Assembly: GCF_000185805.1 (NCBI RefSeq) | Contig: NC_014926.1 | Span: forward strand, 1,482,501-1,546,500 | Origin: Thermovibrio ammonificans HB-1 | Lineage (GTDB): Bacteria > Aquificota > Aquificia > Desulfurobacteriales > Desulfurobacteriaceae | Length of the DNA: 64,000 nucleotides | Reading direction: 5' to 3' | Shown here: positions 5,566 to 57,479 of the stretch, in pieces | Numbering within the stretch: position 1 is the first letter of the stretch | Layout of the letters: each line of letters opens with the position of its first letter | Program-made: the position numbers and the translations under genes | Notes under the pieces: generated by a model | Database searches by the model: none | Told to the model about the DNA's origin: nothing | What the model saw: the letters and a program-made list of their open reading frames with translations, nothing else

Positions 5566-6831
5566 CTACTCCAAAAGCGCAAACCTCTCCATCTCTTCCC
5601 GAACAAACTTCTTAACAGTCTTCTTCCTATCGGGTCTGTACCGTAAAAGGATTTCTCCCGTAGAACTCCTTTTAAGCTCAACAACATTTCTCTCGAAACC
5701 TGCGTGGGCAAAGAAGTTCCTCTTATCCGGGTGGGCTCTATCTTTCCGTTTATCGTCCGATTCTTTTTGTTCCTGCTTATCAGAATTCGCAAGGTAGTCG
5801 TTGTAAGGAACTCCCTCACCCTCCAGCAAGCGGACAACAGAGCACAAACTCTCAAGAACCGAAAAAGCGAAAACGGCCACCCTAACAGAATCTTGAAATG
5901 TCCCACTCCTCTTTACGGAGAAAGTTCCATCCTCGTAGGTACACTCTGTAAGCCTTCGATAGTCGGAAACGCACCTTTCCAAAACTTCATTCAACCCCTC
6001 GTAAAATCTCTTAATAGAAAGGGCCTCTTCTGCAAGAAGCAGGGGTAAACCAAAAGCTAAAGAGCCGTACAAAATGTACAACTCTTCAAGCTTATTCTCC
6101 CTGCAAGACCTTCTCAGTTCACTGTGATTTGTCTTTACAAAGGATCTTTTATCTTTAAGTGTTCTTTCTAATGAAATTTTCGGAATTAATAACGCCTCTT
6201 CAACAACGTTAATATTTGAATCTGCAACTCCGGTTACTACAGGGTCGGCGTTGTAGGCAACAAATTTCACCTTTCTGAAGTTAGCAAGAAGCGAAAAAAC
6301 TCCTTTAACGCTCTATAGGTAAGGACCGGAACAAAATTTAAACCATGAGCAAGGTCCAACATAACCTCAATTTCATCGTTATCAGAAAACAATCTGTTGT
6401 TCTTAAAGAACTTATAGAGTTCAAACAGGAAAGCGTAAAAGTAATCGGTTGCTTCCCCTTCAACTCGTATAGTAACTCCATTTTCAACTCCTCGAGGCGG
6501 AGGGAAAGTTCCCTTGCCCGGAAGGACAAAAATCTCAATCCTCCCTTCTTCAAGGCCCTGTGCAGATAGAAAACCTTTAACAGACTCCTTTACGTAATTA
6601 ACGTGAGTTTCATAAGTTACCGGCTCCCCTTTAAGGAGAAGTTCCTTCTCTCTGTCATCTAAAAGAGAGTCGGGTACAATGATCGGGTACAATGAGAAGA
6701 ACATAATCCGGCTCAAGGCTGTTCACTAACAATTTCAAAGAGGTTGCCGAACTTTCAGACCTACCATCAAAGTGATAGGTAACCTCGTTCCAGGCCTTAA
6801 AATTACCCCAAGGAGTAATCAACATCCTCAT
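5566..6831 (-). pseudogene. csx1: Csx1 (CARF-HEPN type III CRISPR ancillary RNase), two frameshifts
   Basis: Three consecutive frames together encode a roughly 410-residue Csx1. The first starts at ATG 6831 (MRMLITPWGNF...YVLLIVPD). The second carries the CARF-domain motif LDLAHGLNFVPVLTYRAL. The third has the linker motif YNADPV and the C-terminal HEPN RNase motif R-x4-H in KRNFFAHAGF. The first break is a perfect 13-bp tandem duplication (6670-6695); removing one copy restores IVPDSLLDD. The second lies at a T6 run on the coding strand (6294-6299); adding one T restores KEFFSLLANFRKVKFVAYNADPV. Intact Csx1 is activated by cyclic oligoadenylate from Cas10 and cuts RNA. No cas10 is present in the window. 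Sequencing error at the T6 run is possible but cannot explain the duplication easily. Confidence 0.85.
6670..6695. repeat. 13-bp perfect tandem duplication inside csx1
   Basis: TCGGGTACAATGA occurs at 6670-6682 and again at 6683-6695 with no mismatch. Thirteen is not a multiple of three, so the duplication shifts the csx1 reading frame. Its perfection suggests a recent event or a reversible slippage site. Confidence 0.95.
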
Positions 6832-9858: not shown

Positions 9859-10677
9859 ATGAAGCTATTTGTCACAGAAAGTGGGGAATTAAAAACCGGC
9901 TGGGGGAAATTAATAATAAAAACCAAAACAAAGGGAAAAGAATTTCCCTTAAGCAAATTAGAGGCTGTCATTTTACTCAATAACTTGCAAATTCCTCAAA
10001 AGGCCATTGAGGATTTCAGAAAACATAATCTGTTAACAGTCCAAGTCAATGACGACCTAATCCGGATAATTACCACCCCTAAGCTTGAAAAGTTTAAATT
10101 CCCTGAACCAAACAGCTATAAATTTTACTCAATGATTCACCTCAAAAAGGAAGAAGCCCTCAGAACACTTCTATCTTTCCGTAGCGCCTCCGGAACCAGA
10201 GAACTACGCCAACAAAACAGAGCTTTCTATCAGAACATACTCAACAAAACCCTAAATGGAAGAGCGGAGTTGGGAAATAGAACAATCGACCAACTTATAA
10301 CGTCGGAGTTTCTAAGATACGTAGACCAGTTTTCCTCAGTTAACCCCAAATCCCCCGAACTGAATAAGTTCGTTCTATTTATAACAGGCTTATCAAGGGC
10401 ACTAACAGCCTACATTATGAAAGGCGAAGGGTACACGCCTGAGGAGGAAATCGTTGAAAAATTGGAGAATCTGCTCCTCCCCCAGAGACTCTTCATATGT
10501 GCCCATATGCTCAACACCGGCCTAATAGATACTGAAGAACTTACACCCAAAGGCCTAACCGAAGCAGGAAAGAAAATAGCCACAAAAATTCTCCTGGAGT
10601 TCACCTATAACGGAGAGTATTTACTCCCTGTCATATTCACAATCAGAAAAATTGTAGGTGAGGGAAAATTTCAATGA
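9859..10677 (+). CDS. Cas1-like protein lacking the usual His/Asp metal ligands
   Basis: A 272-residue protein whose N-terminus matches the Cas1 beta domain (LFVTESGELKTGWGKLII, then EFPLSKLEAVILLNNLQIP). The helical half shows Cas1-like landmarks: NKFVLFITGLSRALTAYI where Cas1 has its N-x-LLS-x-x-Y helix, and a C-terminal LTEAGKKIATKIL like the Cas1 LTxEGR ending. Glu150 (LITSEFLRYV) may align with the catalytic Glu. The GFLH histidine and LALDLME aspartate are absent (GEGYTPEEEIVEKLEN in that place). It is therefore likely inactive or altered as an integrase and may be a structural partner. Its stop overlaps the next cas2 start (ATGA). Homology was judged by eye. Confidence 0.6.
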   Translation: MKLFVTESGELKTGWGKLIIKTKTKGKEFPLSKLEAVILLNNLQIPQKAIEDFRKHNLLTVQVNDDLIRIITTPKLEKFKFPEPNSYKFYSMIHLKKEEALRTLLSFRSASGTRELRQQNRAFYQNILNKTLNGRAELGNRTIDQLITSEFLRYVDQFSSVNPKSPELNKFVLFITGLSRALTAYIMKGEGYTPEEEIVEKLENLLLPQRLFICAHMLNTGLIDTEELTPKGLTEAGKKIATKILLEFTYNGEYLLPVIFTIRKIVGEGKFQ

Positions 10678-10940
10678 TGTATTTAATTACATACGACATA
10701 TCCAATGATAAAACAAGAACAAAAGTGGCAGACATCCTTGAAAAATTCGGCAAAAGAGTCCAATTCAGCTGTTTTGAAGTAGAATGCACTGAAAAAGAAC
10801 TCTCCGAACTTTTCAAACGAATTGACAAACTAATAAATAAACAGACAGACCACGTAATAGCCTATCCGCTAACAAAAAACAGCCTTAAAGGAGAAACAGC
10901 AATATGCGGGAAAAGGGAAGAAAAAACTCCACCTATGTAG
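10674..10940 (+). CDS. cas2: Cas2 (left module, first copy)
   Basis: An 88-residue ferredoxin-like Cas2. It has YLITYDISNDKTRTKVADIL, with the conserved first-strand Asp in YDIS, then FGKRVQFSCFEVE and a C-terminal VIAYPLTKN strand. Cas2 dimers bridge two Cas1 dimers in the spacer-acquisition complex. The start overlaps the end of the Cas1-like gene by four bases, and the 3' end overlaps the second cas2-like gene by 37 bp, so all three are probably translated from one message. Confidence 0.85.
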   Translation: MMYLITYDISNDKTRTKVADILEKFGKRVQFSCFEVECTEKELSELFKRIDKLINKQTDHVIAYPLTKNSLKGETAICGKREEKTPPM

Positions 10941-11233
10941 TTATCTACGACATTTTCAACTTTGAAGAAGAATATCAAGGTGCGTGGGTATCCTCAGACT
11001 ACAGAAGAAGATGCAGAATTGCTAAAGAACTTCTAAAATACGGAGTTAGAATCCAAAGAAGCGTTTTCGAGATAGAAATTTCAAAAACACAAATCCCCAA
11101 ACTCAAAGCAACTATCCAAAAATACTGCTCAAAAAGAGACAAAATCTTTATATACCTACTCGAAGATAAAGTCAAAAGCAGAGTAAAAGAAAAAGGAACA
11201 CCATTTACTCCCAGAGATATCCAAATACTGTGA
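10904..11233 (+). CDS. cas2: Cas2-like protein (left module, second copy)
   Basis: A 109-residue Cas2 homologue distinct from its neighbour. The first strand is YVVIYDIFN, followed by an insertion of about 12 residues (FEEEYQGAWVSS), then RRRCRIAKELLKYGVRIQRSVFEIEIS and a final strand DKIFIYLLED. The start ATG lies inside the 3' end of the upstream cas2, about ten bases after AAGGAG. Two different Cas2 chains encoded together suggest a heterodimer, paralleling the fused double Cas2 of the module on the other side of the array. Confidence 0.78.
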   Translation: MREKGRKNSTYVVIYDIFNFEEEYQGAWVSSDYRRRCRIAKELLKYGVRIQRSVFEIEISKTQIPKLKATIQKYCSKRDKIFIYLLEDKVKSRVKEKGTPFTPRDIQIL

Positions 11234-11365: not shown

Positions 11366-11416
11366 GTTACAACCTTAACTCTAATTCCATAAATCCCCTG
11401 CTACCAAACCTTTCCT

Positions 11417-11757
11417 GCTGCAATCCCGTCTACTTTTTCGGGCATTTCAACATGAAGATGTGGAGGTTGAAGTATATTGGATATGATAAGTATCGGTCGC
11501 AATCCCGTCTACTTTTTCGGGCATTTCAACTATAACAACAACAATAATAATATACTGAGGGAAGATATTGTAATGTCGCAATCCCGTCTACTTTTTCGGG
11601 CATTTCAACGCAGATCGTAATTGAGATGAAACACAGTGCTGCCTCGTCGCAATCCCGTCTACTTTTTCGGGCATTTCAACATAATGCTTTCTGGGTCATT
11701 CCTACAATACGCTGTAGGAATGGTCGCAATCCCGTCTACTTTTTCGGGCATTTCAAC
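11417..11757 (-). CRISPR. CRISPR array 1: five 35-bp repeats, four spacers
   Basis: Repeats lie at 11417-11451, 11496-11530, 11575-11609, 11646-11680 and 11723-11757, with spacers of 44, 44, 36 and 42 bp. On the minus strand the repeat begins GTTGAAATGCCCG and ends GACGGGATTGCGAC. It can fold through a CCCG/CGGG stem. The leftmost copy differs from the others at two bases near its outer end, which marks the old, distal end. The leader is therefore on the right, and transcription runs on the minus strand from the promoter at 11894-11922. The small size suggests limited recent acquisition. Confidence 0.95.
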
Positions 11758-11893
11758 CCTTGATGGGGAATAGCCATTACAAGCCAAGGTATTCATTTTA
11801 CATTCGGCTTTCATACCATTGGTTCCCAAGGCTTCTCCCCAGTACAGGTTAGGATATACTAACATATTCTCTTCTTTCAAAGACCTTATTAAA

Positions 11894-11922
11894 ATGATAA
11901 CACACTCTCGGCCAATTCACAA
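11894..11922 (-). promoter_or_regulatory. Leader promoter of CRISPR array 1
   Basis: On the minus strand TTGTGA (11922-11917) and TATCAT (11899-11894) are exactly 17 bp apart, followed by an AT-rich leader of about 130 bp up to the first repeat at 11757. The -35 element overlaps the stop codon of the fused cas2 gene. Position and direction fit pre-crRNA transcription from the young end of the array. Confidence 0.55.
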
Positions 11923-12549: not shown

Positions 12550-13446
12550 TCAAACAAGCTTCTCCTTCAGCTTTTTAATAAAAGAGTTAGCAGTATTTAA
12601 AACCTTCTTCTTCCTCTGGAACTCTGTTAACAGTAACAGTAAAAACTTGAGCTTATCTTCTCTAAGAGTAATTCCTCTTATAGTTTGCTCAAAATCTTCC
12701 TTTTTAAAAATTTTTGTTTCAAAAAGCTCAAAGACGAAATTCGCTATTTTAGGCCGCACAATTTCTATCACATCCGATGCCAACGAAGCGTGAGTGCCTC
12801 TTCTCCTATGAAAGAAGCCCATATAAGGGTCGAATCCACTGCCAATAACGTTGGCAGTTATAAGGTTGTAAAAATAGGAAAAAGCCAAACTCAAAACAGC
12901 GTTTACCGGGTCGGGAGGAGGATAGTACTCTCGAGACTTAAAAGAAAACTCCCCCAAATCTTTTTGAGAGTAGTAGCCATACATCAACTTCCCTAAGGTG
13001 CCGTCTAAGCCAAGAAGCGTATTTAGCGTATCTGCAACGGGAATTTTTTCCTCAACCTCTGTAATCTTTTCTGATATATCCGGAATAACCTCTTTAAGCT
13101 GATTACATTTTTTTAAAAGAAGCTCTCTAATTAGAGCATTAGCAAAGGCCTCTTCGGGGAAAAGCCTATATTGTGCCGCCCTTAAATTAACCGTAGAGCT
13201 TCCAAAATGCTCCGGGAGACTCACAGATACAACTTTCCCAAATCCGTTAACAAAAATGACAGGCCTATTATGATGAGACAGGAACCGGATTGCAGAAGAG
13301 GTTATAGATACCCCTGGAAAAAGGATTAAAAGTTCTATAACACCTAAAGGTACCGGCTTATTCCTGCCGTTTACACTTACCAACAAACGATTTGCCCTTT
13401 TCGATACCTCTGCTCCGTAGGAAGCAACAACTATCGGTCGCTTCAA
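12550..13446 (-). CDS. cas1: Cas1 integrase
   Basis: A 298-residue Cas1. The N-terminal beta domain (RLLVSVNGRNKPVPLGVIELLI) is followed by the catalytic helical domain. The metal ligands are visible as His213 in FDPYMGFFHRRRG and Asp225 in SLASDVIEIVRP. The third position, normally Glu in the GxEG motif, is Asp148 here (LLGLDGTLGKLMYGYY). PPPDPVNAVLSLAFSYFY is the typical PxDPVNxxLS segment. Translation starts at TTG after GAGGGGG. With the fused Cas2 downstream it should form the spacer-integration complex for the adjacent array. Confidence 0.92.
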   Translation of the reverse strand: MKRPIVVASYGAEVSKRANRLLVSVNGRNKPVPLGVIELLILFPGVSITSSAIRFLSHHNRPVIFVNGFGKVVSVSLPEHFGSSTVNLRAAQYRLFPEEAFANALIRELLLKKCNQLKEVIPDISEKITEVEEKIPVADTLNTLLGLDGTLGKLMYGYYSQKDLGEFSFKSREYYPPPDPVNAVLSLAFSYFYNLITANVIGSGFDPYMGFFHRRRGTHASLASDVIEIVRPKIANFVFELFETKIFKKEDFEQTIRGITLREDKLKFLLLLLTEFQRKKKVLNTANSFIKKLKEKLV

Positions 13447-56863: not shown

Positions 56864-57479
56864 GTTTAAATCCCACTTGTTCAGATAAAACTAGATATTG
56901 GGGGTAAGCAAATTCAAATAAATCAATGGTTTAAATCCCACTTGTTCAGATAAAACCACGAAGAGGAGATGAGATATTTCCACATCTACTACAGTTTAAA
57001 TCCCACTTGTTCAGATAAAACTTCTTGTCCTGAAAGAGGCCATTGAGAACGCCCTCAAAGGTTTAAATCCCACTTGTTCAGATAAAACTTGGCGTAGCTA
57101 TTCACAAAAGCCAGCTCTATCGTGGGTTTAAATCCCACTTGTTCAGATAAAACTTAGGAGCTTCTGCCTGAGTTTCTCTATTTTGTTGGTTTAAATCCCA
57201 CTTGTTCAGATAAAACCGGGGGAGGAGATGAACTTGCGTTCCCTATATGACGACGTTTAAATCCCACTTGTTCAGATAAAACGGCGACCTTGAGACCGTA
57301 AGGGAGTTCTTAAAGAAGAGGTTTAAATCCCACTTGTTCAGATAAAACGATTACGAATACGAGGTTACCACCGCCACCTTTGAGGGTTTAAATCCCACTT
57401 GTTCAGATAAAACGAGCAGGAATAGAACTCAAGAGAGAAAGGCCGTTTTAGGTTTAAATCCCACTTGTTCAGATAAAAC
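56864..57479 (-). CRISPR. CRISPR array 2: ten 28-bp repeats, nine spacers
   Basis: Repeats start at 56864, 56929, 56994, 57061, 57126, 57189, 57255, 57321, 57386 and 57452, each 28 bp. On the plus strand they begin GTTTAAATCCCAC and end GATAAAAC. All ten read as identical. Spacers are 35-39 bp. The reverse complement (GTTTTATCTGAAC start) resembles type I-B repeats, which together with the promoter at 57527-57556 suggests minus-strand transcription with the leader on the right. No cas genes are adjacent. The repeat differs from that of array 1. Confidence 0.97.

Follow-up and report, generated by a model that had tools for sequence, protein, structure and literature searches.

A Cas1-family protein predicted to lack catalysis, encoded with two different Cas2s in Thermovibrio ammonificans, points to possible lopsided CRISPR integrases in which one Cas1 subunit would be purely structural

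The genome of the hot-vent bacterium Thermovibrio ammonificans HB-1 (1,759,526 bases in two contigs) carries an operon in which a Cas1-family protein that has lost its catalytic triad, designated here dCas1, is encoded together with two different Cas2 proteins. The data presented below are consistent with dCas1 being a non-catalytic Cas1 that has been selected for a structural and DNA-binding role within a Cas1-Cas2-type complex assembled on the two Cas2s, a reading for which acceptance and doubt are, in our judgement, evenly balanced. The region analysed, referred to as the window, is a stretch of 64,000 nucleotides (NC_014926.1, positions 1,482,501 to 1,546,500) and the location of the relevant features is given in Table 1. 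The plus-strand dCas1-Cas2a-Cas2b operon is named the dead module and the facing minus-strand locus, composed of a Cas1 and a fused Cas2-Cas2, is named module B.

Co-translation of dCas1 with two Cas2-type proteins, as proposed in the initial annotation, is plausible since the dCas1 stop overlaps the start of Cas2a and since Cas2a in turn overlaps Cas2b, both products being clear Cas2s. The co-occurrence of cas1 and cas2 in one operon, by which a CRISPR adaptation module is recognised, is thus found in the dead module, with two Cas2s, and no live Cas1 is encoded within the operon itself.

Table 1. Location of the dead module, of the putative former catalytic positions of dCas1 and of the neighbouring array and module B (window positions)
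Feature	Position	Strand	Remarks
dCas1, Cas1-family protein without catalytic triad, 272 aa	9859..10677	+	intact ORF, ATG 9859 to TGA 10677
Asn133 codon (LNG), column of catalytic Glu/Asp	10255..10257	+	hhalign, three modes; congener also Asn
Pro194-Glu195, site of the missing 11-residue loop that bears the catalytic His in live Cas1s	10438..10443	+	profile alignment
Lys201 codon, column of catalytic Asp	10459..10461	+	hhalign
Cas2a, 88 aa	10674..10940	+	Pfam PF09827 E 6e-23; start overlaps dCas1 stop
Cas2b, 109 aa, second and different Cas2	10904..11233	+	Pfam PF09827 E 1.6e-16; overlaps Cas2a
CRISPR array, 5 repeats (GTTGAAATGCCCGAAAAAGTAGACGGGATTGCGAC on minus strand)	11416..11757	-	trailer end faces dead module
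Array leader, module B side	11758..11917	-	common to two other arrays of the genome
Fused Cas2-Cas2 of module B, 210 aa	11917..12549	-	two PF09827 stretches; N-terminal half falls in the Cas2a group
Live Cas1 of module B, 298 aa: Asp148, His213, Asp225	12550..13446	-	PF01867 E 1.3e-51

Curated models score dCas1 too low to assign it to a family: Pfam Cas_Cas1 matches residues 3-61 only (E 0.0042), with 16.7 bits for a cut-off of 22.3, and the NCBIfam score is 15.2 for a cut-off of 71.7. Profile-profile comparison with live Cas1s aligned dCas1 over its whole length (ca. 250 columns, probability 96%), with E-values of 3e-9 to 8e-9 that apply to a single comparison. An AlphaFold2 model displayed a mean pLDDT of 63, with ca. 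80 in the N-terminal domain and less than 50 in residues 82-159, a region that includes Asn133; because the underlying alignment is small and was seeded with Cas1s, this model supports the fold but is no proof alone. Its best structure match is 2yzs of Aquifex (Z 17.1, 233 residues), and the best 50 matches listed all correspond to Cas1 or casposase. A model built from the two dCas1s alone reached a pLDDT of 41 and was set aside. Overall, the profile alignments and the model indicate that dCas1 has a full-length Cas1 fold, with an N-terminal beta domain followed by a C-terminal helical domain, in agreement with the initial annotation, which had recognised both the beta domain and a Cas1-like C-terminus. 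It therefore resembles canonical Cas1 (PF01867 / TIGR00287), the CRISPR integrase, in its full-length fold, domain order and association with Cas2 in an operon, but differs by the absence of a Glu/Asp-His-Asp site, by the deletion of the His loop and by falling below the Pfam and NCBIfam cut-offs.

To map the catalytic columns, dCas1 was compared with 31 live Cas1s in three hhalign modes, all of which gave the same columns. Asn133, a deletion and Lys201 were found at these columns in T. ammonificans, and Asn, a deletion and Leu in the dCas1 of a congener (see below). The His and the Asp, as well as the flanking Arg, Pro and Asn, occur in all 31 live Cas1s, while these flanking residues are not kept in the dCas1s. 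The profile alignments thus bear out the earlier proposal that the catalytic ligands are missing. That proposal had described the His and Asp motifs as replaced; there is indeed no matching His or Asp, but the His has been deleted with an 11-residue loop rather than substituted. An earlier alignment, based on a smaller profile, aligned Met/Leu, and no gap, with the His column; neither version has a His there. Glu150, previously suggested as a remaining ligand, lies past the catalytic column in all profile alignments and was ruled out. The loss of three metal ligands in two species thus supports the prediction that dCas1 is non-catalytic.

Glu195, Glu197 and Glu200 are invariant across both dCas1s, as might be expected if the protein were still a nuclease or integrase with relocated ligands, for instance Glu200. 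As the latter immediately precedes the Asp column, a one-residue register shift there is a minor possibility. Such relocation is nevertheless considered highly improbable, given that the Glu/Asp has become Asn in both proteins, that the His loop is deleted and that the flanking Arg, Pro and Asn of live Cas1s have been lost.

The same dCas1-Cas2a-Cas2b operon was detected in one congener, Desulfurobacteriaceae MAG 4571-419 (JAMOTD010000017.1), where it occupies the same neighbourhood as in the window, upstream of a pgpA-like gene and of biotin-carboxylase genes. Two of the four genomes of the genus do not have it at that site, the neighbouring genes being in place. No further dCas1 relative was found beyond the congener locus in genome contigs, viral contigs, plasmids and phages, and the family comprises two members only, one of which comes from a MAG. 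Two cyanobacterial matches to the Cas2b profile turned out to be ordinary Cas1-Cas2 loci.

The two dCas1s are 27-30% identical with both frames intact, and their alignment score stands far above that of shuffled sequences (z 11.8); identity over aligned residues was unusable as a homology test, shuffled controls averaging 0.25. The sole relative being too diverged for dN/dS, the survival of the frames was considered instead, and dN/dS was measured on an analogous second Cas1-like family of other Aquificota (see below). Between the two species, 4-fold sites of neighbouring conserved housekeeping genes are only ca. 0.4 identical. In neutral simulations, the probability that no stop occurs was 0.0003 at 0.3 substitutions per site, and none of 4000 runs stayed open at 0.6 or more. 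Cas2a and Cas2b are also intact in both species, with 47-51% identity. The ratio of identity in the catalytic segment to that in the N-terminal domain is 0.84 for the dCas1 pair, compared with at least 1.16 (mean 1.57) for 48 non-independent pairs of live Cas1s with a comparable overall identity. Constraint in dCas1 has thus shifted away from the catalytic segment and towards the N-terminal domain. Intact frames despite such silent-site divergence, together with this ratio, point to a coding capacity that has been selected and to an active-site segment that has lost its privilege. These comparisons support the initial view that dCas1 is not a product of random decay, as neutral decay would have broken the frames at such divergence.

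In a milder form of decay, the operon would be of use for its Cas2 pair, for example as nucleases, and dCas1 would be a drifting remnant under relaxed selection and on its way out. The faster divergence of dCas1 relative to its Cas2s (ca. 30% vs 47-51% identity) fits this scenario, as do the lack of an array (see below) and the absence of the operon from half of the genus genomes. We regard it as unlikely, since the frames have remained intact in both species while silent sites diverged far, the alignment score lies well beyond that of shuffles and the coupled gene ends have been kept.

Live modules of the Desulfurobacteriaceae occur in two forms, composed of either Cas1, Cas2a and Cas2b (A) or Cas1 and a fused Cas2-Cas2 (B). 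Cas1 normally carries a catalytic Glu at the first ligand column. An Asp is found there in all 15 Cas1s of the two-Cas2 modules of this family, including that of module B, with the His and Asp intact, while a Glu occurs in the 16 of 16 homologues aligned from other Aquificota. Cas2-Cas2 fusions were identified in five genomes, namely in the window (module B, Table 1) and at L070:13061-13696, L079:4334-4972, L080:3007-3624 and L074:7101-7715; their halves represent different Cas2 lineages, as the N half groups with Cas2a. As regards a link to type III CRISPR adaptation, Cas10 was found within ca. 15 kb of several A or B modules in relatives, but at C2:830 kb in the T. ammonificans genome.

The dead module shares its gene order with live modules of the family and its Cas2a groups with the Cas2a of the live A modules (support 92/92). 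The live Cas1s nearest to the dCas1 profile in HMM searches are A-type Cas1s of one genome, G017 (E 3e-8 to 3e-7). Based on this grouping and on these best matches, the dead module would most simply derive from an A module by loss of Cas1 catalysis; long branches make the position of dCas1 in a tree untrustworthy. The live A and B modules differ in having the Asp-His-Asp site and, for most of them, a same-strand array directly after the operon, the dead module having neither.

The CRISPR array located between the dead module and module B was considered as a candidate array of the former. Most live modules of this family have their array immediately after the Cas2s, with GTTGAAAT... read on the operon strand; in the window, GTTGAAAT... 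is read on the strand of module B. Two other arrays of the genome have leaders similar to the 160 bases that separate this array from module B, with local alignment scores of 104 and 66 for shuffle maxima of 26 and 24, and the opposite flank of this array, on the dead-module side, is without resemblance to those leaders. Repeat orientation and the shared leader on the module B side therefore assign this array to module B and rule it out as that of the dead module. No array occurs in the 18 kb surrounding the dead module of the congener either, and in neither genome does the dead module have its own array.

A live Cas1 accompanied by a fused Cas2-Cas2 co-occurs with the dead module in both genomes. 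In T. ammonificans, the type I Cas1 (C2:1579748-1580560, L001) is interrupted at codon 271 by an in-frame TGA, beyond which the frame runs for 53 codons; module B therefore holds the only uninterrupted catalytic Cas1 found in the genome. Other CRISPR-related features of the window include Csx1, which occurs on the minus strand (5566-6716) as two ORFs, a CARF part (6267-6716) and a HEPN part (5566-6270), that overlap by 4 bases in different frames and correspond to either a split gene or a frameshift. A second CRISPR array (56864-57479) has 10 repeats of a different sequence, GTTTTATCTGAACAAGTGGGATTTAAAC.

The Aquificota were further searched with a profile of the family Cas1s and the flanks of the matches were then read. 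The two-Cas2 arrangement is general across the phylum. At 8 loci from 7 genomes, the operon comprises a second Cas1-like protein followed by Cas2, Cas1 and Cas2, with two of these loci ending at a contig edge before the last Cas2. The second Cas1-like proteins (L153-L158, L161 and L163, e.g. L156:2343-3200) are encoded just upstream of Cas2-Cas1-Cas2, are 283-299 aa long and have no Pfam or NCBIfam match above cut-off; their profile aligns with that of live Cas1 over 254 columns (probability 93%) and matches 10 loci in 9 of the 136 genomes. The His is replaced by Asn in all eight, the Asp is kept, and the Glu column is occupied by Asn in six cases and by Asp in two. With this Asp, the family could retain some activity. 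Pairs of these genes display dN/dS values of 0.13-0.21, similar to those of the adjoining live Cas1, which is indicative of purifying selection. Like dCas1, these proteins are divergent, have no catalytic His and belong to a module with two Cas2s; unlike dCas1, they keep the Asp and lie beside a live Cas1 at the loci read.

No specific relation was detected between the dCas1 of the window and this second family (hhalign probability of 0.1 in both directions), the profile of which has no match in the T. ammonificans genome, and orthology between the two is unsupported by sequence. Another divergent Cas1-like protein, in genome G052 (L164:7036-7944), has Asn, Ile and Leu at the catalytic columns, is located beside a live Cas1 and is unrelated to the His-to-Asn family. 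Since none of them is specifically related to dCas1, these proteins are best viewed as analogues. Eight further loci contain divergent ORFs of 211-257 aa beside or within Cas2-Cas1-Cas2 (L165:7161-7874, L166, L168, L171, L172, L169:1513-2286, L170:1969-2628 and L162:7533-8168). No family match was obtained for them, and one group shows at its start a weak resemblance to the Cas1 N-terminal domain. They were not counted as Cas1s, the best comparison with a live Cas1 giving 28% over 57 columns near the start. Overall, the analogues show that selection has retained, in Aquificota, double-Cas2 modules with a second Cas1 that is probably non-catalytic.

Known integrases consist of a Cas2 dimer with a Cas1 dimer on either side, and only one of the two protomers in each Cas1 dimer is catalytic (PMC8102632; PMC6895254). 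By analogy, dCas1 would dimerise and bind Cas2a/Cas2b in the manner of an ordinary Cas1 and would take the place of the non-catalytic Cas1b protomer, and a live Cas1, here most likely that of module B, would carry out strand transfer. A division of labour that normally takes place within one dimer would in this case be fixed in separate genes. Like Cas1b in Cas1-Cas2 hexamers, dCas1 would provide structure and DNA contacts without chemistry; Cas1a and Cas1b are the product of one gene (PMC8102632), whereas dCas1 is encoded by a separate gene and its product is without ligands. This role for dCas1 is supported by the loss of ligands, the signs of selection, the retained operon and the co-occurring live Cas1, as well as by analogy with the operons in which a dCas1-like gene precedes Cas2-Cas1-Cas2 and evolves at a low dN/dS. 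The idea raised in the initial annotation, that dCas1 forms a structural half of the integrase, is thus rendered plausible by analogous operons that include a live Cas1, but the operon of dCas1 itself has neither a live Cas1 nor an array and dCas1 has no specific sequence relation to these analogues. Against the mixing of subunits, module B has its own Cas2s and no obvious need of the dead module, and the two lie on different contigs in the congener. The small size of the dCas1 family, with two members, and its patchy occurrence in the genus also weigh against a structural subunit.

The main rival explanation is that the dead module forms a non-integrating Cas1-Cas2a-Cas2b particle of its own, which would bind DNA (prespacers, leaders or repeats) and act as a regulator, a decoy or a dominant-negative brake on the live module, with no mixing of subunits. 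This fits the self-contained operon, with its own two Cas2s and with no array or live Cas1, almost as well as a structural subunit does, and agrees with the separate location of module B in the congener. The inclusion of a live Cas1 in analogous operons elsewhere favours joint assembly, and we hold a separate particle to be rather unlikely.

CRISPR integrases have been described as Cas1 homodimers on a Cas2 homodimer, with one Cas1 per dimer performing the chemistry. In the literature searched, which covers the field in part, neither a natural dead Cas1 partner nor a heterodimeric or fused Cas2 was found to be described. Second Cas1-like proteins are likely to be missed by current annotation because they have no Pfam or NCBIfam match above cut-off. 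The operons described here, with dead and working Cas1s, suggest lopsided CRISPR integrases having a purely structural Cas1 subunit. More tentatively, and with somewhat less belief than doubt, we propose that Aquificota possess asymmetric integrases made of two different Cas2s and two different Cas1s, only one of the Cas1s being catalytic and the other having a purely structural role. The structural Cas1 would have arisen at least three times (as the Thermovibrio-type dCas1, as the nine-genome His-to-Asn family and as the protein of G052); this would represent a recurrent, selected inactivation of one half of the complex, possibly fixing the orientation of spacer integration. If true, live and dead Cas1 genes accompanied by two distinct Cas2s would make the four Cas1 positions genetically separable, and would bear on how the integrase distinguishes the leader end from the spacer end.
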